64,000 nucleotides of DNA, from positions 2,308,001 to 2,372,000 of the forward strand of contig NC_134035.1 in assembly GCF_964204645.1 (NCBI RefSeq), written 5' to 3'. Both the position numbers and the translations under genes were made by a program. This DNA comes from Tubulanus polymorphus. Taxonomy: Eukaryota; Nemertea; Palaeonemertea; Tubulaniformes; Tubulanidae. How positions within the stretch are numbered: position 1 is the first letter of the stretch; the number at the start of each line of letters is the position of its first letter. Of this stretch, positions 49,583 to 64,000 are shown piece after piece. Below the pieces are notes generated by a model. The model saw nothing but the letters and a program-made list of their open reading frames with translations, was not told the origin of the DNA and ran no database searches.

Positions 49583-50116
49583 TAGGACAAAAATGAAATA
49601 CTTAACAAGTCGTGATGGTTGGGGAATCTGTGAGCCTGATTACTCAATCATCATAATTTGTGTCCATACTATGTTAATAGGCTACAAATTCAGATAAAAG
49701 GTCGATGTCCAAAGGCCTCGATAAAATCAGAACATGATCGACATACGGGCTAACCTGAGCCAAGCGATCACACACGCAAACAATTTGGCCCAGGTCAAAC
49801 TAGCCGAAAGGATGTACTGCGTCCTAACGAGTTCAGTTAACCGATGTCACAAATATAGAACTAATTTACTTTCTCATAGACAAGGAGCATAAATACATTA
49901 TATACTGGCTGTGAGTTGGAAACCGGTCGTACGCATTTCCTGAGCTGAATAATTAATTACGAGCCGATATACGAACCAAACTGGTTCCGAGTTTTCAGCA
50001 TCGAAACTGGCCTGATATACGTCTTACCGGGCCTAAACAATATTACTATCTAATCATCGGCGAGGCTGTGTATAACGAGCCGCCCCCTACCTCGCTGAAA
50101 ATGAGACGGCGGCACT

Positions 50117-50173
50117 GAGCTACTAGCGCCTAGCTACTAGCGCCGAGCTACTAGCACCGAGCTACTAGCGCCA
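50117..50173 (+). repeat. 14-bp tandem repeat, four copies
   Basis: GAGCTACTAGCGCC repeated four times with two substitutions. Confidence 0.85.
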
Positions 50174-50417
50174 GGCTTAGAATGAACAATAGCAATGAAA
50201 AACATAGTGGAGCGAGTGCAATAATCAAACTGGAACTGAGACTAAACTATAATAAAGCTGTCTACATATGTACTAATACGCCTTTCAAATTTACAGACAT
50301 ACAATTTTAGACTTAATTCATACAAAGGTTTTGTTTGGGGCAATGAATTATACAAACAACATACATTTCAACATTCATTAGAATGCACTTCGTCTTTTTC
50401 ATTGGGCCTTATTAGAC

Positions 50418-50977
50418 CTAGTGGTTTAGTCTAGATAGACCTCGATCTCTGAAAATCCACCAAGGCCTTAACTCAACCAATGCTACATCAACGAAATCCG
50501 GCATTAACGGCGCTGATTCAAAGTTTGGTAATGAGTGGTGAATCCAGGGGGTGTGCGTAGGGGTCTGGACCCCTAATATTTTGAGGCCCCTGAAAAAATT
50601 CCATCCACAAATATTCCTACATCCATATTGTTAGTATATATATATGTATGAGTATAATATGAACATGAAGTGTGCCCACATGTCTGACATACACCTAGTA
50701 GTTAGATCTAGATAGACCTTGATCTCTGAAAATCCACCAAGGCCTAAATTCAACCAAAATGTTACATACACAAGATCTGGCACGAACAGTATTTCGCCGA
50801 TTCAAAGTTTGGTAACTGGTGCCGGATCCAGGGGGCATCCATGGGGGTCCGGGACCCCCTCATATTTTGAGGTCCCTAAAAAATTCCATCCTCAAATATT
50901 CCTACAATCATATTGTTAGTATATATATGTATGTGTATAATATGAACATGAAGTGTGCCCACATGTCTGACATACAC
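50418..50977 (+). repeat. Tandem duplication of about 280 bp
   Basis: Copy 1 (50418-50694) and copy 2 (50695-50977) share AGACCTYGATCTCTGAAAAT, GATTCAAAGTTTGGTAA, ATTCCATCC, a TATATATGTATG stretch and GTGCCCACATGTCTGACATA. Confidence 0.85.
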
Positions 50978-51748
50978 GCCGATTATAGATTTTCCATTTT
51001 TTCACCGGCTGAAAAAAGAAAACCAGCAGCACACCATTCTGTTCATTCGTACAAATTATGTCCGGTTCGCAGGTTTGTTCTATGCGTCTCGCGTTGTACT
51101 ACATTGTATTGAGAGATATCGAATGAAGACATTCGCGACAATTGTACTTCGTAATTCGCGTGTATATACAAAAACGAAACGTCGTCGAAATTGAAAAATC
51201 GCGAGCAAATATTTTCTATGTCTGTACGTATCGAGCAGACAATATAAATCATTAGACCTCTAGCGAGCGAGCGGTATTCAAAGTTTACGTTGTACGCCAA
51301 AATTAGTATAAACACTTTATTTTCGACTAAATACACCCCTAGCTCGACACTGTATTTAGTAGATACGACGATTTCATGGAATTAGGTTTCATGTCTCATG
51401 ACTCGAGGCTTCGAACAATTTCTTCGCGAAGCATTCAAATCGATGAATATTCATCCTATCAGGATTTTAATTTTCCTGGATTTTCCCCGCCATAACCATT
51501 GATATATATATATATTTCGTAATGATTAACAATAGGTAGAGTATAGGCACATCGACATCGCATACAAACCACAAATTACAGTCAGTATCACAAATTAATA
51601 TACTTACATGAGCATTCGGTGTAAGAATTAATCACACGTCTGAATAAATTACTAACTATTTTGTGGATGATTACTACTCCTGAATGCCGGCCACCACCGA
51701 CCAAAAGCTGGCGGATGATAAAGGGCTTTGTTAGATGTTAGACTTGTT

Positions 51749-51968
51749 TGCACGCGGTCTCTCTTTATGTTATTACGCTCGAAACAGATTAATTGGTATT
51801 AAAAGTCTATTCGGACCGAGAGAGAGAGAAAAGAGGAGAGAAGAGAGGAGAGTGCGTTGTAGACAGCAGCAGCGTACAGCGTTCACTGTTGAACAGGTTG
51901 TTGCTGTGTATTTGCACCCAGTCGAGTCACTCGCTGCCACTGATGCACGAAGACCACGAGTTGCACAC
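51749..51968. promoter_or_regulatory. Cluster of three metal-response-element cores (downstream cluster)
   Basis: TGCRCNC cores at 51749-51755 (TGCACGC), 51913-51919 (TGCACCC) and 51962-51968 (TGCACAC). MTF-1 binds this core in metallothionein and ZnT1 promoters. Link to SLC30A1 is inferred from position upstream of its start. Confidence 0.3.
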
Positions 51969-54532
51969 ACTCACTCACTAGTTCTAGTGTATCGATACAC
52001 CCCTCACCAATCTGGCGACGTCGGTCGGTCGGCCGTCTCACTCATCTCTCAATTACCGAAATCAAACATATTATACTCATCATCTCTCAATCTATCGCCG
52101 AATTCAAATACATTTCTCTAGCCTCATGGAATGAACCAACCTCGAAAAAATTTAAATCCACTCATTTTCAATTGAGAAATTAATAAAAAGTTATACTTGT
52201 CCCTTTAGGCCTGTTACGACTGTTACATTGTCAGAAATCACTCAGAGTCCGAGTATCAAATCTTTCAATTTTTGTCCAGGGTGTTCCGAGTTTAAGTCAT
52301 TCACCGGCCCGTTGAGCAGTCAAGTTTTACCATCAATACTAAGCCCATTTCAGTGCTAACCGAACAATACTCTTATCATTCAACAGGTAAGACCAGTATT
52401 TGAATGACATCACCGATGGGCCCAGGTAGGCCTACTTCAGATTTCCTTTCAAATTTAGTAACTTTCATCCGAAGAACTTCGATATTTTTGGACGAGATTT
52501 TGTCGCAGACTTTTGGGATGAAATCTGCGTTTAAATTCTGAACTGACTAGTACGACAACATGAAAATATGATATCATCATTGCTTATGACACGTACTTAG
52601 GAAAATAAACAGATGCCACATACACCCTTAAATGTACAATTCATTCACAGGTCTATTGATTACTACTAGCTCAGAGTCAATAATATACAGGCTAAAAACA
52701 GTGGACTTCAATAACAGGTTCAGTAAAAATGAGGCAAGCACATTTCTGATTGTAGAAGCTTTTTTTTAAAAGCATTTTTGCAAGGAAAAAGTGACACTTT
52801 TCTTTATTATCCAAGACCACAGCCCTCGTCCTAATCCACAGAAGCCCAAGACACTGGTACCTGACAAATCTTGATCTTTAAACTTCTTAATTCTGTATCT
52901 AGTGGGATTTTTGTCATCACTTTATGAAGTTTTTTTTTTCATTCGGTGAAAAGTAAGCACTTCTTACGGCAATTATTTCACTTCTAAGCGCTTCGGATTC
53001 TCGCTATGATTCCCGCGTAGCCGAATACCTGGAAGCTAATTCTACAGGGAATGAATGCTCGTTTCGACATAGTACTCTAAATAACGACTAATGGGGTAAC
53101 ACACACCGAGTTAATGTATAACTACAGTCCAGGAACTAAAACTATGACAAAAGGTTCAAATCGCTAAAAATCGCTGATACCGTCAATAACTAAAAAATAA
53201 GTCCAGATCAAACGTGATATTTGTGTAAGATGAACATGAAGGAAAACCCAAAATAAAACCCAAAATAATTCGACCAAAGTTCTCGATTGAAAGTGTATTT
53301 CGAATCAACGTTTCGACTATAAACTAATATCATTTAGAAAATATCCACGCAAACACTGATTAGATTCATAGAGGGTAATTGAAATAGCCCGATAAGGTAG
53401 GACTATAGGCCGAATGGATAGGCTAACACTGACCTGATTTAACCAACTACAATCCTTATAGGATCGAACATTCCAAGAGAATGTTCTTAACCTACAGCGC
53501 CGTCATTAGGGATCATATTCACTGGCCCCACAATGCCGAACAATGTCAATCTCCTGAAAGCTCATAGGGCCTATTCATTTCATAGAGACAGAATAATGTC
53601 CCAATCAGGGAAATATAAACCAGTTCCAATTTTAGACAAGTCCGTTTTGATAGGGGATAGGGTAAGACCCCTTCTTACCATATCTGACAGACCTTACCCT
53701 GACCCTTACCCTTATCTGCTCCTATCCTCGGAAGAGCATTCGTGAAGTCAAATAGGCCTATGTCAAACAAGAAACTAAGCCCTGTTTAAAAACTGAAAGC
53801 TTCGTGCCAGGCGATGTCTAAACCTACGGAAAAATATTTCTTTTTTACATGAAAGTGTCGTCTTTCTCTCACCACAAAGATGTCACAAAAACTTATCTTC
53901 GCGACAGCTGCACAACTGTGACAAGCACGAGGACGACTCTTATCTCGTTCACGTACCACCGGAACAGAATACCAAGTCCAAAACTGACGACGATAGTATC
54001 GCAAATCGCGGAAATACAATGTGCGATATAAAATGTGAAGGGGCCTGACGCGAAATTCAACCCATTTTCAAACCCCCCTTATATAAATCTACACTTTTTT
54101 AAGCATTATTGACAGAAAGCGAGACGTGGCCAATTCTATGAATCGGTTTAATCAGATCATCTCGGAATTAGACCTTAAGAGAATGGTTATTAGGCCTACA
54201 ATGAGAAAATAGACTTTAGCACAATGTAGTAGACCAGACATTGTGATATCTTTAATTGTAGTAGTTTGCACCAGCAGAATTGAGAGTAATGTGACATTAA
54301 AAACAGTAGTTTGAATAAATTGAAAATGAACTAGACTATTCTGATTCTCAAGGAGCCTATGTCGTAGTTGAGGTCCTTGTTGTTCTCTCTCCCTCTCTCA
54401 AATCATAGTCATACCGAGAACAATTATCAAAAAGATAACATTTGGAACAATTTGAAAACTCGACGGAACATCTGATGTCATAGGCCCACCCGAACCGAAC
54501 CACTGTCAACCACAAACCTCCAAAATACTCAC

Positions 54533-54757
54533 CAGCAGTTATTTTCTCTTCTTTACTATACACAAAGCAATCCGACCCGTTTATTCCTTCATGAGCCGAA
54601 TTTAAATTCTCCTCTAACTCGTAGTCGTGCTCCAGCTCGGGACGTCCAATGACGAATTGTTAAATAGTAGTTTATAAGAGATGAAGAATTTTGCACTCAA
54701 CCCAATAAATCCACAGCTCATTGCTTGCACCCGGCGGGGTAGGGCTGAGAGAGTGCA
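54533..54757 (-). promoter_or_regulatory. SLC30A1: Candidate SLC30A1 promoter/first exon with three MRE cores
   Basis: TGCRCNC cores at 54692-54698, 54726-54732 and, on the minus strand, 54751-54757. On the minus strand they are followed by a consensus donor, GTGAGT at 54527-54532, after AACTGCTG. A short untranslated exon ending at 54533 could splice to the acceptor at 48255 before the SLC30A1 ATG. The exon's 5' end is not visible. Confidence 0.35.
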
Positions 54758-56248
54758 CGGAGATCACTCGTTCCGGAGCCGATTCGACGTAAATCCTGAT
54801 GCGAATTTTACCGTTAACGCACTCGTGGTATCCAGTAAATGAAGCTGTACCGATCCGAATAGAGATGTTTCGTTTTCCGAGCCGTTATAACGCGATAAGA
54901 CGCGTTTGTTTGCTGTAAAACGGCGCCGAGCGTAAACACACAGTGTACCGACTGATTCTCGCCTCTTAACACCGGAGACCGGCTTACACCGTCCGGTGGC
55001 GCCGCCATCCGGGTAAATTAGAAATGACTCATAGTTGAAGTGTACTTTTATTGTACTGACTCACCACATCCTCAGTAGTACAAAGCAATAAAGAGTGCCA
55101 TATCTTCGATGCAAGGATTCAAACCTCCTCATTCCCGGTGCCAAATTTGATCTATTTCAAAATTACAATGCAGATCCAGTTCATCACCAACGGTATAGTT
55201 CTCGCAATAAAAGATGAAAAAGGAAAAAATACAAATCATGGAATAATATTACTTCAACTCATTTTTATTTACTTAATCAATAAAAGTCTTTCGATAAATT
55301 CATCCAAGTCATGATATAAAACTCAATTTTGGCTTTCGTTATTTACAGTAAACTAAGCACATTCTTCATAAATCACATATAATTTTTTTGCATAACATTT
55401 ATTTACTCATTATTTCAGTTTAGGTTCAATTTTATCTATCCCATCAACAATACATTTCTCTAACTGGACACAGGTTCATATCTAGGACCAACACAGTTAA
55501 ACGTTTAACTCTATCGACCATATTTTCAATTTTGACTACAAATTTCATATAGAACTAGGTCCTGGTCAACAATCATCTATTCATTAATCTAGACAAATCT
55601 ATTTTCAATCATTATTTCATGAAGAGACTGATTTAATATTGATCATAAACATTCAAACTTATTAAACGCCAACATTCTTCTTTCGAGAACAAATATGCCA
55701 AATCTCTCTCAACACTTCAAACAACGCCAAATTCGTTTTAATGTCTCAGCATCTTTCTTGGTCCCAACGATGGCTTTATAAAAGATTTTGTACGTCATAT
55801 ATTTCCGTGGCTTGCCACCATTCTTATCACGATAATCATCGCGTAGTTTCATAGTTAAGACCCATGATTCCAAATAATTTTCGCTACTAAAGAATATCTA
55901 TCTGATTATCATCATTCGCTTGATTTTCTAGGCACATTCACATTTCAGATTTCACCGGTATTTCGTTATCAATTACGCAGTAATTTCCGAGAGTTACGCT
56001 AAAAATCTGAGACAATGGTTGCACTGTCAAGACTCAAGATCAGACGCGGTTAACACGTTCGCTGCCATACCTGTAGTCGTGTACCGCACCGCCTTCGCCA
56101 AAATATACACACCTCACATAGATATTCACATAGATATACACACCTCACATAGATATTAATTTTTCGTTCGGCATTTTTGATGAACTGAAAAGTTCAGTTA
56201 ATTGCCACAACGTCAGCAAAAACAGCAGGTATGGCATTTATCACATAG

Positions 56249-56414
56249 GGATCATTCATTTATTACGTATGCATAAAATTTGAGTTTTTCAACCCCCCTC
56301 CCTTTGTACGCAAAATCGGCCATTTTTTCATATACATTAAGCATTACAGTACGCAATTGCACTGTCCCCTCCCCCTTCCCCTTGATGCGTTCGTAATAAA
56401 TGAATGACTCCATA
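56249..56414. mobile_element. MITE with ATTCATTTATTACG ends
   Basis: GGATCATTCATTTATTACGT on the left and TCGTAATAAATGAATGACTC on the right are inverted; CCCCCCTCCC-type tracts lie inside. The AATAAA it carries on the minus strand (56259-56264) may serve HSDL1 by chance. Confidence 0.6.
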
Positions 56415-56669
56415 ACCAGTGTGCCAAGAGCTTATAACCATTTTCTAATAGTATATGCATACATACGCACATGCTGGCAAAATTCAGCACCCTTCCTTCT
56501 TATATATCTACACGGCTGGCGGCTAACGTGTTAGCCTTATTTTCTTCCTAAAGACCTTTCGAACAAATTTACACACGTCGCAGGATTGAAGACTATTTTT
56601 CGGCCGACGTTCCGACCAGATACTAGAACGACGATAACAATACACACGCGAGTCTCACACTTATATCAG

Positions 56670-56921
56670 TTATACGGTAGTTGCTGGATCGGTAGGCGAT
56701 ACGAACGCGCTGCTGCCATCTATTGGTAACGACGGACGACGGTGCGACGATATCGACGCGAAATCCGACAACGAACTGGAAGACGGACTGCCTCCGCTGT
56801 ATAGTGAACCGCGTCCGGAGCGGTGGCGTTTGCGGTGTTCGGCCTGACGACGTAGCGCGATGTTCAACCGGGTCGCTCCCCACATATATATACAATCGGG
56901 AATCCACTGCAACAACCAATG
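56670..56921 (-). CDS. HSDL1: HSDL1 exon 9 (C-terminus)
   Basis: Acceptor TTGTATTTTCAG, stop TAA at 56670-56672. WIPDCIYMWGATRLNIALRR is collinear with the human C-terminus; the remaining tail is Ser/Arg/Gly-rich and not found in the human protein. Confidence 0.85.
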   Translation of the reverse strand, partial: HWLLQWIPDCIYMWGATRLNIALRRQAEHRKRHRSGRGSLYSGGSPSSSSLSDFASISSHRRPSLPIDGSSAFVSPTDPATTV

Positions 56922-59900
56922 CTGAAAATACAACGAAGACAAATAAGTCTTTTTTTAGTGAGCGACCAAAACGATATTTGGTCGTCTCAAGAGGCAACTG
57001 AAACCGCTTCTCACATGGTTCCCACAGTTAAATGAATTAGAAATTCCCAGGTTTTTCCCAAGTATTTTCGTGGGTGATTTTTCAATTTTCCCAAATGGAA
57101 ATGAACAGGTATCATCATACTACAGTCAACATTCTATTTTAGTGGTGCCTGGTTGATAAAGGTGATTCTCAAGGGAAACTACTGAAGAAAGTCGCCCTTG
57201 GCAAATGAAATACATGAAATGTAAATGAATTTCCCAAGTATTTCCCTGATGAGGAAATTTTTCAAATTCCCAAATATTTCCAAACTGGGAATTCTTATTT
57301 CAAAATTCCCAAGTTTTTCCCGATTTCCCTGTTCTGTGGGAACCATGTTCTCAAAAACAGATGAGAGTGGTGAGGCCAGAGAAGAACCCTCAACGAAGTC
57401 TATATACCTGTAACGTATGAGGCCAGTAACCGGTGGTTTTTCTCGCCCAGCCGAGAGTTTTCAACGCATGACGAGCGTAAACGCTGGCAGACGGTATGAA
57501 GAAGTTCGTCGTCGACAGCGTTTCGCTGTAGGCGGTCATCCGCGTCGCGACGTAATACGGCGTTAAACACTGCACGATTACTCCGCTGCTTCGATACTCG
57601 TATTCCAAACAATACGACAAATAATCGAGGTATGACTGCAAAAAAATAGTAGAAAACAACAACGAAAATAAGTCCTCGAGACTCAGAAAATCTGAAATTC
57701 TAGACAATTCTGGAAAATTGAAAATACGGTGCCAAATTCAGGTCAGTAATTCAATTTTCCAGATTAAGAATAAATTACTATGTAACTGGGGGATATGGAG
57801 AACTGAAACACACTGACATTCTGGGTTTCAGAAGATTCACAAAATTCTGTTATACTTGGAGCAGAGTTTTTTTTGGAGGAAGCAGGTTAAAGACACTTTT
57901 ACACAAAAAATTAGGAATTAGTAGGCACATTATGACAGGGAAAAGTATGTAGGGCCAATAGACAGTCTAACTGAGATGCATCATTGCAACAGATGAATAT
58001 ACTCGTATAATGTACAAACCTTAGTGGCCGAGTATGCGGTCATTTGAGGGGTCGGTTTTAAACAAGATCCCGATGAAATATTTATCACAGCTCCGCGACC
58101 TCTAAAAAGAAATACCAATGAAACATGATCGTCAAAATCATATTTTAAAGAATTATTTCAACATTAGAACTTAACGTTTGTAAATTGAATCAGAAATAGG
58201 CTACAAATAGGGATTCAAAATAGAGACGAATTCAGCAATGCGGCAACTTATGTCCAATGTCTACTGGGTACTAACACTGAGGATATTGAATTAGAAATAC
58301 ATACATGTACTGATATAATAAGTGGGAATGAAAATAGTTGGACAACTCATCCAAATGAAGACTAAGGTACACTTAGTAAATTGAGTTGGAGATATGCAAT
58401 TCAGGACTAAAAGATAGTGAGAAGTAAACCAAGTTGGACTGTATTTCATTTCCCGTTTCTGTGCTGATTGTATAATAGATCAAATATGTACATAAACGAT
58501 ACCTTTTAACCATCTGTGGCATCACCATGTGAGTCATCTAAAAATCAAGTGCCAAATAGAAAATATATACAAGTTCATCGGAATGAGAATTTTCATTAGT
58601 ATTTTCTAACGAATAATTCACAGCAGTCCCCGATAAGAGAAACACCGAATACTTACGATTGTCGCTGCTATCACATTCACGTAAACTAGCTGCCATAATT
58701 TCTGCAAAAAATATAATTTGAATAATTGTTAAGCGCAATTCAGAGGACTAGGGGCCAGTTACAAAGTCGTGACCTAGGTCCAAAAGTGATCTCAAATCTT
58801 AAGACTGGTCTTAAGTTGTTAGATTGGCTATGGAACTAACTTGGTCTTAGACTGTCTTAAGTCTAAGCCGTGCCTTTGGAAGTGGCCCCTGAAGATGATT
58901 AGTTATGATGAATTTTATTGTCATAATCAACCTGCTGAAAGTGGCCAATCATATTTAGGGGCGGATCCAGAGGCTGATCCTGAAGAGCAAGTCCGATGTC
59001 CAAAAAGGTGAACTCCCACACATAGGGACCAATTATGACGTTCTCCCACTGTTTATCATTGCAGACAAAATGAAAAGGCCACTCAAATTGATGGACTTGT
59101 TCAAGTGTCATAAGTCCCACTGGATCCGCCCCTGCATATAACTAGCTACAGGTCATCGGTACTCACCTCTTCGGGTACATCAAGGAAGTACTGTGGATAT
59201 GAATACATTACTCCTACATTATTAACTAAAAAACAAACACAACTAAGAATCATGTTGTATTACTTAGTAGAGTGATAACAACGACTTTCTTCTCAGTAAT
59301 TATTGTTAGTATATAACATTTCGACAGATGTTAGAAAATTTGACTGGAAATTTACTAATACTAATCCCTAAGGCAGGTTTCAATTGGTCTTTATACCGTT
59401 TCCGGTCTCCACCCATTCTGGAATTCTCTCTCAGTTTTGGCGTGTTTGTTTCACCCAGAATTTTACAGAAGTATTTAACGTAAGTAATCTAGGGTGAACC
59501 AAGCTTCATCGATGCTTACCTAAGATACCTATATTTTTGTCACCTATTGCCTCCCGTATTGTATTGTACACGCTGTGGCCATGAGTAAAATCAACAGGAC
59601 ACGTAGCGACCTCTATATGAAACTGTTCCTCTGAAATATAAACCGTAAAACTATTAGAGAATTTGTCACTTTTTATCACATATGAAATAAACAGACAGGG
59701 GCGGATCTAGGGGTCTGATTTAGGGAGGGTGACCCTCTCAAATACAGCATATCATTTAATTAGAAAGGCACCCTGAAAGAAAACTCATCAGAGAACATTA
59801 CCTCATTTTTGGAAGTACAGGGTGCAATCTAACCTTTTTAAGCACCAGTTTAATATTTTTAATCTTCCTGTAAAATTTCAAGGCATGTTAACATTTTTTA

Positions 59901-62900
59901 CATTTTTAGGGAGGGGGGTGCGCATCCCCCTTGGATCCGCCCCTGACAGACCAAGATATTAGAGAAGCTTAAACTTATAAGCATGTTATACTGAAATGGC
60001 GCTTTTTTAAAGTTTCATAATCTATCAGCCAAAGCTCCGAAGGGAAGCAGAGTAGATTGTAGCATCACTGCGTGTGGCCACGTGGAATAATGGAAGTCTT
60101 ACGTACATGCATCAACTATAGCCCGAACCTCCTTCGACTTTCAAATAGTTCCGGCTCTACCGCAACTTCAGAATTCACTCGAAACATTTTGAAATTGAAA
60201 AGGAACTACAAACACCAGGCATCAGCCATTTGATGAGGAAAATTTCAGAATGTGATGTCCAGGCATCATCTGTATGAAGTGGGTAATTACAAGCAGGGTG
60301 CAGGTTTATAGGAGGTACAGTACATGAAAGGTAGAATCATGCAGAGTCGTATATTCCTTATTATAACCCTACAGATTCAGGTTTGAGAGACAAGAACTTC
60401 ATTATCAACGAAACTTTGATACATTGTAAATCATCGATCTGTACAACTCGCTTAATTTGGATTTTTCTATCGAGATTTCATTTAATTCGGATGAAACATT
60501 TTGGTCCGAATTACCTGGAACTGTGTAAACTATTAGGGCCTACTCATTATTTGGATTTTACTTCATTCAGAGAAGAAATCTAAGTCGTCCGAATTAAGTG
60601 AGCTCTATTGTGTTATTACCGTAGTAACGCAAATTAAGTGATTCGTCGATTCATTCAATCGTGATTCTACATATCGATCGACGTTATTCAGAAAAGCGAA
60701 ACATTTTTTTCCATTTCATCAGATAATTTTTGCCACAGTGCAATAATAATTACCGTATTAGTGAAAATACACGAAAGGAAACATTTCATAAAGCAATCAT
60801 TGATTAGGCGTTTTATAGTGTTTTATGAAAGAGTGTGTGTGCAGCCGAAATATATGGAGCGGTGTCCACGTACAAACTAAACCTACACTGTTCAAGATAC
60901 GATACATATGATTAGGAAGAGATTTTTGGACTAAACATTACAATATTTTTCAATAGACTCCCTGTTAACCTCCCTGATACAATTAACCTGTCTAATCTGG
61001 ATCAATTTACAGTCCGCCTATATAACTTAAATATATAGGTTGCGTATGTTGAAAAATTCAGTGGTCCTCATCGGAGATTTTTTGAAATTCTAGCCTTTTT
61101 CACCGATTCAGTAATTTGCAATTTGAAATTTTCTTTGCAAAAGTATATTGTATACCCATTATTCAACACATCGGGGCGCAATCTTTTTAAACTTTTAAAT
61201 CATCTCCAGTACTTTTGGGTATCAACAAGTGAGCACTGAAAGGGTTAACGTAGATTCTCCCCTAAAACCCGAATATCATATCTTGAACAGTGAGTTTATA
61301 AGATTATTCATATTCGTATCGTCGCTTCGCTTACCAAATTCGTTGGCCAATTTATCAAGTTTGCCTTGGTTGCGACTTAATAGCAGTAAGTTAAGCCCTT
61401 GACTGGCTAATTCGTGGCAGAACGCCCTCCCAATACCCTCGGTACAACCAGTGACAACTTAAACGACACAATGAAATAATCACATATTTAGGGTGACACA
61501 ACATGAGTATCTATATATATATATAAATATATATATGAATCTTTTTAACTGGGCGTTAAACAAACACAGAGCTGAAGACATAAAACATAATATTTTTCTC
61601 AGCAAAAATACTCATTTAATATTAACAAATGAAATAAATTTCTATAACTTTTTTTGCAATTTAGGCCAATATTTACATTTTAAATTATTGGTATTTGGAA
61701 AATTTGCTCTTTCATGCAGCATCACACTTAGGATTCTATGGCTAGTGGATTTGTATGCCACATTTCGATTTCAATCTATAAAGCACAGTTCTTCTATATC
61801 ACTGTTATAAGCTCTATGTCTTTAACTCTGGTTGGATTAACGAGTTAAAAAGGCTAACGACAATTTGACATAGTTTACCGTTATAGCATATAGCGCATGA
61901 ATAGGGTCTGCGGCACTGCTACTGTGGCAAGCAAGGATTTAGCGATAATCCACCAGGTGTCGCAAGTGGCACTCGGTTACCGCACTCCTACATTTCAATT
62001 AAATTCGAATCTAATTTTCTCATCAGTAAATCAATTTTCGGCGTACCATAAACTGAGTGAGAAAGTCAATCTTATATCTACATATTCGATGACTTGTTTG
62101 ATAATATTCGATTTGGAGCTCCAAAAGTTAAGCTCAAATTTTATTGAAAATGAACAAATTTCCACAGCGAATAACTCGGTGCATTGTTGCGCCATCTGGT
62201 GAGTGCCGGTGCCCCATTAAACTATAGGCCTTTTTATGAACCAGCAAAATCGAAATAGATTAGCTATTTAGATTATATAGCCGATTAGTGTCAATTAGCA
62301 TAACCGGGTATGTTGTTTGATAAAAACGCCAGGTAGAAATTATTCAATTATGGCCTACTCAGTAGCGACTTCTACCGAGAACACCATATCGGTTGGATTA
62401 GATAATCGGCATACTTGCTCGCCGAGCGAGTATGCTGAGTATGCTAATCGATTATGATAACCAATGTTCATAAAAATGACGGATTATGACATAATCCATG
62501 CTCATAAAAACGTTTTGCATACTCGAATATACTAATCGAGTGTTCATAAAAAGGCCTTATGTCATTTGCCTTCTTGTTTACGCATAGCCTACCTCTGCAT
62601 CGCGATGACGTATTTTGAGATATCGTTCACAAATTACTCAACTTGAACTAACATCAAATCATTCTTTCTTTCATTTTGGTTTTGAAAACAATTTGTTTCC
62701 CTTCGACGTTTTCGATTTTTTAAATATGAACATGAACACCATCCGCCGAGATATCTCAAAATATGTCCCCTTTACGCGAGAAGGCAGTTCACACCTCGCG
62801 AGAAAAAAAAACGAAAAAACATTTATTAGGCTATCAAACTTTTACGCATCGACCTTACCGATCTCCTTGGCAACTTTCTCTAGGAAAGGCTGGTCGGGTT

Positions 62901-63622
62901 TACTTATCATGACGAGATTAATGCCGTGACTCGCTAGTTCCTGCGCGTACGCCTTTCCGATACCCTCGCTGCATCCGGTAACCACTGACAACAGCAGCAG
63001 CAACGACAACAATCAGATACATAATAAACTTTATCAAGCTTGAATACAGTTAACCTCGTTGATTTCTTCTATCGAGATGGATATGATGACTTAAGCAAGG
63101 TTAACAAACATTTCTAATTAGGCCTTTAGTAATATAATGTACAGTTAGGCCTCTCTTTAGTAGTTATCAGATTTAACTTTTTTATTTGAATTTAGAGCGC
63201 CAACAAATCTTGAGACTTCCGAAAGAAAAAGATTGTTTCTTCTTCAACAAGAACTACAGCTTCAACGAGAACAACAGCTTGCATACTAAACTTAACAAAA
63301 TGCATATCACTGCAAGGTCTTAAAACTAATGGTTAAAATTTAACAGGAGTCTCCTTCATTCAAGGAGAAGAGTCCCACACACAGAGTAGTAGACACACCA
63401 CATGCACGTACCTGCCCATTTTCCAAATTTGTTCTTGAGGTTTATCGGAGCTATTCTGCTGATAAAATGCGCGCCGACAGCGTTCAATATCGCAGCTACA
63501 GCTCCTATAGTCTTCGTGCCGACGTAATATGCCCCGATTGCGGCGAACGTGTCGTTAACCGACGTGAAAACATTGGCTATTTCTTTTGACAGATGCTCGA
63601 AGTTGTCAACGGCGGCGGCCAT
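56670..63622 (-). CDS. HSDL1: HSDL1-type short-chain dehydrogenase, gene span, nine coding exons plus one alternative exon
   Basis: Exons 63412-63622, 62859-62984 (2a), 59520-59630, 59167-59225, 58657-58701, 58503-58537, 58020-58101, 57408-57635 and 56670-56921 join in phase to 382 aa. The hydrophobic N-terminus MAAAVDNFEHL...KFGKWA matches human HSDL1, not HSD17B12. SDR motifs: TGCSEGIG (73-80), NNVG (from 151), Ser206, and Tyr219-x3-Lys223 (YSATK). Human HSDL1 has Phe at that Tyr and is considered inactive; here the full catalytic set is present, so NAD(P)H-dependent ketone or alcohol chemistry is possible. Human HSDL1 is mitochondrial. The C-terminus (WIPDCIYMWGATRLNIALR) matches HSDL1 and then adds about 50 Ser/Arg-rich residues. 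A second in-phase exon 2 lies at 61335-61457. Confidence 0.9.
57013..57348. mobile_element. MITE with perfect 15-bp ends, in HSDL1 intron 8
   Basis: ACATGGTTCCCACAG (57013-57027) and CTGTGGGAACCATGT (57334-57348) are exact inverted repeats. The interior repeats TTCCCAAGTATTTYCC-like words. Confidence 0.75.
57408..57635 (-). CDS. HSDL1: HSDL1 exon 8
   Basis: Acceptor TTTTTTTTGCAG, donor GTATAT, phase 0 to 0. Encodes SYLDYLSYCLEYEYRSSGVI, then YYVATRMTA and the RKTTGYWPH stretch typical of HSDL1. Confidence 0.92.
58020..58101 (-). CDS. HSDL1: HSDL1 exon 7 (catalytic Ser/Tyr/Lys)
   Basis: Acceptor TTTCTTTTTAG, donor GTTTGT, phase 2 to 0. Encodes AVINISSGSCLKPTPQMTAY, then SATK, so Ser206, Tyr219 and Lys223 lie in one exon. 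Confidence 0.9.
58503..58537 (-). CDS. HSDL1: HSDL1 exon 6 (microexon, 35 nt)
   Basis: Acceptor TTGATTTTTAG, donor GTATCG, phase 0 to 2. Encodes MTHMVMPQMVK plus the first two bases of Arg, matching the family's LPGMVER-type stretch. Confidence 0.82.
58657..58701 (-). CDS. HSDL1: HSDL1 exon 5 (15 codons)
   Basis: Acceptor ATTTTTTGCAG, donor GTAAGT, phase 0 to 0. Encodes KLWQLVYVNVIAATI, with the SDR helix Asn in VNV. Confidence 0.85.
58750..58890. mobile_element. MITE with AGGGGCCAGTT ends, in HSDL1 intron 4
   Basis: AGGGGCCAGTT and, inverted, AGGGGCCACTT bound 141 bp. Interior GACTGGTCTTAAGTTGTTAG recurs in the repeat at 37255-37515. Confidence 0.6.
58957..59134. mobile_element. hAT-like MITE, copy 2, in HSDL1 intron 4
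   Basis: AGGGGCGGATCCAGAGG at the left and CTGGATCCGCCCCT at the right are inverted. The minus ORF at 58899-59120 lies inside it and is not a gene. Confidence 0.7.
59167..59225 (-). CDS. HSDL1: HSDL1 exon 4 (NNVG motif)
   Basis: Acceptor GTTTTTTAG, donor GTGAGT, phase 1 to 0. Encodes VNNVGVMYSYPQYFLDVPEE. Too short for ordinary ORF finding. Confidence 0.9.
59520..59630 (-). CDS. HSDL1: HSDL1 exon 3
   Basis: Acceptor TTTATATTTCAG, donor GTAAGC at 59514-59519, phase 1 to 1. Encodes EVATCPVDFTHGHSVYNTIR and ends KNIGIL. A GTATCT nine bases earlier is an in-phase but weaker donor that would drop the conserved Gly-Ile-Leu. Confidence 0.88.
59696..59945. mobile_element. hAT-like MITE, copy 3, in HSDL1 intron upstream of exon 3
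   Basis: CAGGGGCGGATCTAG and TTGGATCCGCCCCTG are inverted; ACAGA lies on both sides of the element. Same end family as 30272 and 58957. Confidence 0.7.
61335..61457 (-). CDS. HSDL1: HSDL1 exon 2b (first Rossmann element, alternative)
   Basis: Acceptor GTCGTTTAAG, donor GTAAGC, phase 1 to 1, 123 nt. Encodes VVTGCTEGIGRAFCHELASQ, then GLNLLLLSRNQGKLDKLANE. It replaces the same segment as exon 2a; including both would duplicate the nucleotide-binding start without breaking the frame. Confidence 0.82.
62226..62557. mobile_element. MITE with perfect 16-bp ends between exons 2a and 2b of HSDL1
   Basis: AGGCCTTTTTATGAAC (62226-62241) and GTTCATAAAAAGGCCT (62542-62557) are exact inverted repeats, flanked by TAT on both sides. 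A GCATACTTGCTCG / CGAGCGAGTATGC hairpin lies inside near 62410-62437. Confidence 0.75.
62859..62984 (-). CDS. HSDL1: HSDL1 exon 2a (first Rossmann element, alternative)
   Basis: Acceptor GCTGTTGTCAG, donor GTAAGG, phase 1 to 1, 126 nt. Encodes VVTGCSEGIGKAYAQELASH, then GINLVMISKPDQPFLEKVAK. One codon longer than exon 2b and than the human segment. Confidence 0.85.
63412..63622 (-). CDS. HSDL1: HSDL1 exon 1 (residues 1-70, hydrophobic N-terminus)
   Basis: ATG at 63620-63622, donor GTACGT at 63406-63411, phase 1 out. Ends NKFGKWA, just before the Rossmann strand. Confidence 0.9.
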
Positions 63623-64000
63623 GTTTGAACTGCCCGGCCGACCAACCGGATGGGGATGTGGAAAACTGGCCGGACGGCCGGACCAGGATCAACTGTTTAG
63701 TGACTCCACCGTCACAGTGTTAATCATTGACTAGTATATTGGAACCATTTCGGCATCAATCGCTTTGATTATTCTACGCGAATAAATATCGAAGCCAGGA
63801 TTCGAAAAACTTCTCAATTACCACAGCCAGATCCTGTTTGAAAAAATTAGTTTTTCCAAATGTTTTTATGGTCAAATCACCCACATTTCTACTGAAGAAT
63901 CACACAACTGCTTAACATTTTTCAGTTTTTACCCAATTCTAGTTAGTAACCTAATCGTTGGTGGTAAGGTTTTTATAATCGGATGGGCTTATACCAGCTT
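63623..64000. other. HSDL1: Upstream flank of HSDL1
   Basis: Probably the HSDL1 promoter and 5' UTR. The first 80 bp are GC-rich with GGCCGGACGGCCGG; no TATA box at a useful distance was seen. Confidence 0.4.

Follow-up and report, generated by a model that had tools for sequence, protein, structure and literature searches.

The window analysed here, 64,000 nucleotides of a Tubulanus polymorphus contig (NC_134035.1, positions 2,308,001 to 2,372,000), harbours on its minus strand an HSDL1-like SDR gene that runs from an ATG at 63622 to a stop codon at 56670 over nine exon positions, the second of which is occupied by two candidate exons. Exon 1 (63412..63622) has a phase 1 end, its last base being the G of a Val codon at the donor ..GGGCAG/GTACGT, and is followed by exon 2a (62859..62984; 126 nt, phase 1-1; peptide (V)VTGCSEGIGKAYAQELASHGINLVMISKPDQPFLEKVAKEI(E)) and exon 2b (61335..61457; 123 nt, phase 1-1; peptide (V)VTGCTEGIGRAFCHELASQGLNLLLLSRNQGKLDKLANEF(E)). 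Exon 3 (59520..59630), behind the acceptor TTTCAG/AGGAACAG, can follow exon 1, 2a or 2b without a frame shift, and the remaining coding sequence comprises exon 4 (59167..59225) with the NNVG motif, exon 5 (58657..58701) with the helix that carries the catalytic Asn (YVNVIAAT), exon 6 (58503..58537), exon 7 (58020..58101) with the catalytic Ser, Tyr and Lys (ISSGSCLKPTPQMTAYSATK), exon 8 (57408..57635) and exon 9 (56670..56921) with the C-terminal end and the stop codon. Isoform A with exon 2a has 382 and isoform B with exon 2b 381 amino acids, the protein being otherwise identical. The features of classical SDRs, TGC[ST]EGIG (TGxxxGxG), NNVG (NNxG), the N-S-Y-K active site and YSATK, are complete in either isoform, and the whole isoforms reach similar scores with the Pfam model adh_short (142 and 147 bits) and with SDRs of the PDB.

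The assignment to HSDL1, already made in a preliminary description of this DNA, is probable: the N-terminal leader, the domain start KFGKWAVVTG, the segment SYPQYF and the C-terminal WGATRLNIALRRQ are present and seem to resemble those of vertebrate HSDL1, and the genome has a separate HSD17B12-type paralog. In vertebrate HSDL1 the catalytic Tyr is replaced by Phe, whereas exon 7 retains the active-site Tyr (MTAYSATK, 58020-58101) with no Phe in its place; Phe is not known to define invertebrate HSDL1. The gene is a single copy in the 268-Mb genome, where all matches to isoform B with at least 80% identity fall at one locus and the 2a peptide finds below E 0.05 solely 2a itself (E 8e-22) and 2b (E 1e-7). 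A duplicate of the whole gene or of a genomic segment elsewhere was rejected, as the genome searches returned this one locus, and a third copy of exon 2 was not found at positions 50001-64000 of the window. HSDL1 is assigned to the SDR12C family (Meier 2009, as cited in PMC9859523). Eight SDR genes are clustered in tandem at G000:C2:6116881-6130685, and in every one of them the SDR domain is encoded by one frame without interruption.

Rereading of the sequence reproduced exactly the coordinates, AG/GTAAG borders and phases that had first been given for the two exons. Exon 2a is bordered by CAG/TGGTTACC...GAGATCG/GTAAGG and exon 2b by AAG/TTGTCACT...GAATTTG/GTAAGC, and both begin with bases 2 and 3 of a Val codon and end with base 1 of a Glu codon that is completed by exon 3. 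The agreement at about half of the positions noted before corresponds to identity of 22 of the 40 whole-codon residues (55%). As the alignment score of 112 lies far above the maximum of 13 reached in 2000 shuffles (mean -23, sd 8.7), the likeness is not due to chance and the exons are homologous, while doubling by haplotypes or by the assembly was rejected, the DNA being just 72% identical over the most alike 69 nt. The isoforms differ by 18 substitutions and one inserted residue, the latter, in the loop after strand 2, being the sole difference in length. Exon 2 encodes the glycine-loop residues, the following helix, the second strand and the start of the next helix; both copies provide the TG-x3-GxG loop as TGC[S/T]EGIG together with its helix, the first part of the Rossmann unit, as had been described.

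The frames of both exons are open and their splice sites intact, and the exchanges between them bear the signature of purifying selection. Changes at codon positions 1, 2 and 3 number 13, 7 and 25; pS is 0.74, with synonymous sites near saturation, versus a dN of 0.34, which gives an omega of about 0.1. In a codon likelihood calculated by grid search with kappa fixed at 2 and equal branches, on a basis of 40 codons with saturated synonymous sites from one genome, a model with both copies constrained outperformed a model in which one copy evolves neutrally; its lead was 4.3, 6.1 and 4.9 log units under three gap placements, and over an omega of 1 it was 8-10 log units for the same placements. 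A simulated neutral copy retained an open frame and both splice dinucleotides in about 12% of cases at 54% identity (branch 0.3) and was intact in 1.6% of runs at a branch of 0.75. Purifying selection has thus very probably kept both 2a and 2b, in line with what the preliminary description had suggested from the intact frames and splice sites.

The duplicated unit can be compared with a paralog of HSD17B12 type that lies near 8.896 Mb of the same contig (C11). Exon 2 of this paralog is split by one extra intron but has the same outer borders as the HSDL1-like exon 2, and these shared borders indicate that an old, natural exon was duplicated. In one alignment, 2a is identical to the paralog at 23 of 41 and 2b at 21 of 41 residues, compared with 22 of 41 between 2a and 2b, while changes private to one exon number six in 2a and seven in 2b. 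As the identity between 2a and 2b is no higher than that of either exon to the paralog, the duplication would be either old or followed by fast change, the paralog comparison favouring neither. The about equal distance of the two exons from the paralog argues that neither is decaying. This bears on the reading that one copy is a relic, silenced too recently to show it; the likelier candidates would be 2a, on account of its unusual KPDQP loop with one added residue, or 2b, on account of its weak AAG acceptor. Against such peculiarities stand the open frames and intact splice sites of both exons, the lead of 4-6 log units for the codon model with both copies constrained and the symmetrical change relative to the paralog, so that a decayed copy was disfavoured and the relic appears highly improbable, although a very recent loss of use is conceivable.

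Two enzymes with different nucleotide-binding folds, as proposed initially, are not borne out, as the same fold is encoded by both exons. Classical SDRs of the NAD type are marked by a characteristic Asp, which is absent in both 2a and 2b. The segment after strand 2 reads S-K-PDQPF in 2a and S-R-NQGK in 2b, such that the first residue after the strand is basic in both (Lys and Arg, respectively) and is preceded by Ser in both; in alignments with SDRs of the PDB, the Lys of 2a falls in the column that holds Arg in other SDRs. The glycine motifs, TGCSEGIG and TGCTEGIG, share the same Glu, and neither there nor after strand 2 do the exons differ in charge class. Classical SDRs that prefer NADP(H) characteristically carry a basic residue within the glycine motif, directly behind strand 2 or at both places (cases worked out in PMC5797133 and PMC8007833). 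Judged by this usual rule both isoforms look NADP(H)-type, and a difference in cofactor choice, which the initial argument had derived from the same segment, is not predicted; that argument would require one exon to be devoid of the basic residue, which applies to neither. A switch between NADP(H) and NAD(H) controlled by splicing, a sub-case of the tandem-exon explanation preferred below with which its likelihood overlaps, would draw on the fact that the only length change and a cluster of the differences are located in the loop behind strand 2, adjacent to the ribose of the adenosine. With Lys and Arg at the same basic position, Ser and the glycine-motif Glu in common and the NAD-type Asp in neither exon, such a switch is very doubtful. 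Relative to 2b, the loop of 2a has one added residue, two prolines and one Asp, and this altered loop could change affinity or loop mobility.

Mutually exclusive use of 2a and 2b, putative and judged from the exon class to which the pair belongs, is the most likely splicing pattern. All four combinations, 2a, 2b, both or neither, keep the reading frame, so NMD cannot enforce exclusive use, and the 2a-2b intron (61458..62858), with 1401 nt at present and about 1070 nt before a transposon inserted, gives no steric block. The acceptor of 2b, AAG, recurs at no other internal exon of the gene, that of 2a being CAG, and the exonic part of the donors TCG/GTAAGG (2a) and TTG/GTAAGC (2b) is weaker than that of most other donors of the gene. 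A search for complementarity at the locus revealed no convincing case of paired intron sequences that join 2a to 2b; docking/selector pairing was rejected, as the only long complementarities consist of transposon ends, a stretch of 73% complementarity spanning the donor of exon 1, and a stem that lies downstream of 2b, none of which links the two exons. This stem (61274-61292/60886-60904; 18 of 19 nt paired, 369-nt loop) begins 43 nt past the donor of 2b, its arms fall outside the repeat copies found, and it may represent either old transposon ends or a splicing element.

The four frame-preserving combinations, an intron between 2a and 2b long enough for splicing and the lack of a visible exclusion mechanism at the locus are what would be expected if 2a and 2b were cassette exons under separate control, both or neither of them being present in a real share of the transcripts. 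A protein with both would however carry two glycine-loop units, that is a repeated strand-helix-strand, and a protein with neither would carry none, and both products should be non-functional; moreover, tandem duplicated exons of equal phase are tied to exclusive choice (PMC9741552, PMC9013439). Use that is not strictly exclusive is considered unlikely.

Several repeats reside in the introns of the gene. The transposon between 2a and 2b (62226-62557) is a young MITE-like element of 332 nt with perfect 16-nt inverted ends (AGGCCTTTTTATGAAC), and the 97-99% identity of about 40 scored genome copies (698 candidates) identifies it as a recent insertion. Inverted ends CAGGGGCGGATC, as in hAT-like elements, occur at 59696-59945 and also near 58960-59130, and an old interspersed repeat of about 100 nt, with about 40 scored copies at about 80% identity, lies downstream of 2b (61144-61250).

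Taken as a whole, the locus is quite likely to contain a mutually exclusive, tandem-duplicated pair of exons 2 that gives rise to two full-length SDR isoforms, both NADP(H)-type, tuned rather than switched. Tandem duplication would long ago have copied the exon that, in an HSDL1-like SDR, encodes the initial part of the Rossmann unit; both copies would be transcribed, one per mRNA, with exon 1 spliced to 2a or 2b and then to exon 3, to yield the predicted isoforms of 382 and 381 amino acids with an intact N-S-Y-K active site. The differences between the isoforms are predicted to sit on the side that binds the adenosine half of the cofactor. Exchanging the exons would most likely tune how tightly the cofactor binds, how stable the enzyme is or how it contacts its partners, perhaps depending on tissue or stage. 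That splicing programmes, under regulation by tissue or stage, a pair of active SDRs whose swapped cofactor-binding units make them differ in redox behaviour, whether in affinity or in preference for the cofactor, is a more far-reaching proposal that we regard as unlikely; if true, this would be the first SDR in which exclusive exons control the cofactor site of the Rossmann fold. HSDL1 counts among the orphan SDRs, its human and zebrafish members being reportedly inactive (Meier 2009, as cited in PMC9859523), and the retained Tyr together with two selected cofactor exons argue for a regulated nucleotide-binding role in this lineage. The exon pair also provides a natural swap experiment at the cofactor site of a Rossmann fold, all else in the enzyme being unchanged.

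Mutually exclusive exons that arose by tandem duplication form a well-documented class (Hatje 2017, PMC5740500; Martinez-Gomez 2022, PMC9741552; Ivanov and Pervouchine 2022, PMC9013439). Exons 2a and 2b resemble this class in being adjacent and homologous, of near-equal length and of the same phase and splice-site type with compatible GT-AG sites, and in that both appear to be under selection with change confined to one homologous region; joint inclusion of 2a and 2b keeps the frame, frame-breaking being an optional feature of the class. Among enzymes, exclusive exon pairs are exemplified by PKM 9/10 and KHK 3A/3C. A further enzyme example is OGDH 4a/4b (PMC7969005), the exclusivity of which is enforced by distant branch points, whereas the AG-free stretch upstream of 2b, with 51 nt, is no longer than those of the other exons of the gene (15-66 nt). 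A search confined to openly available papers turned up no pair of mutually exclusive exons in HSDL1 or any other SDR, which is a weak indication that none has been described. The kind of exon is thus known and its place, an HSDL1-like SDR, unusual, the pair itself being real and probably functional. The likeness to PKM, KHK and OGDH lies in a metabolic enzyme that would be tuned via the swap of one homologous exon; while those are other enzymes with other folds, the unit swapped here would be the cofactor-binding start of the SDR Rossmann fold.
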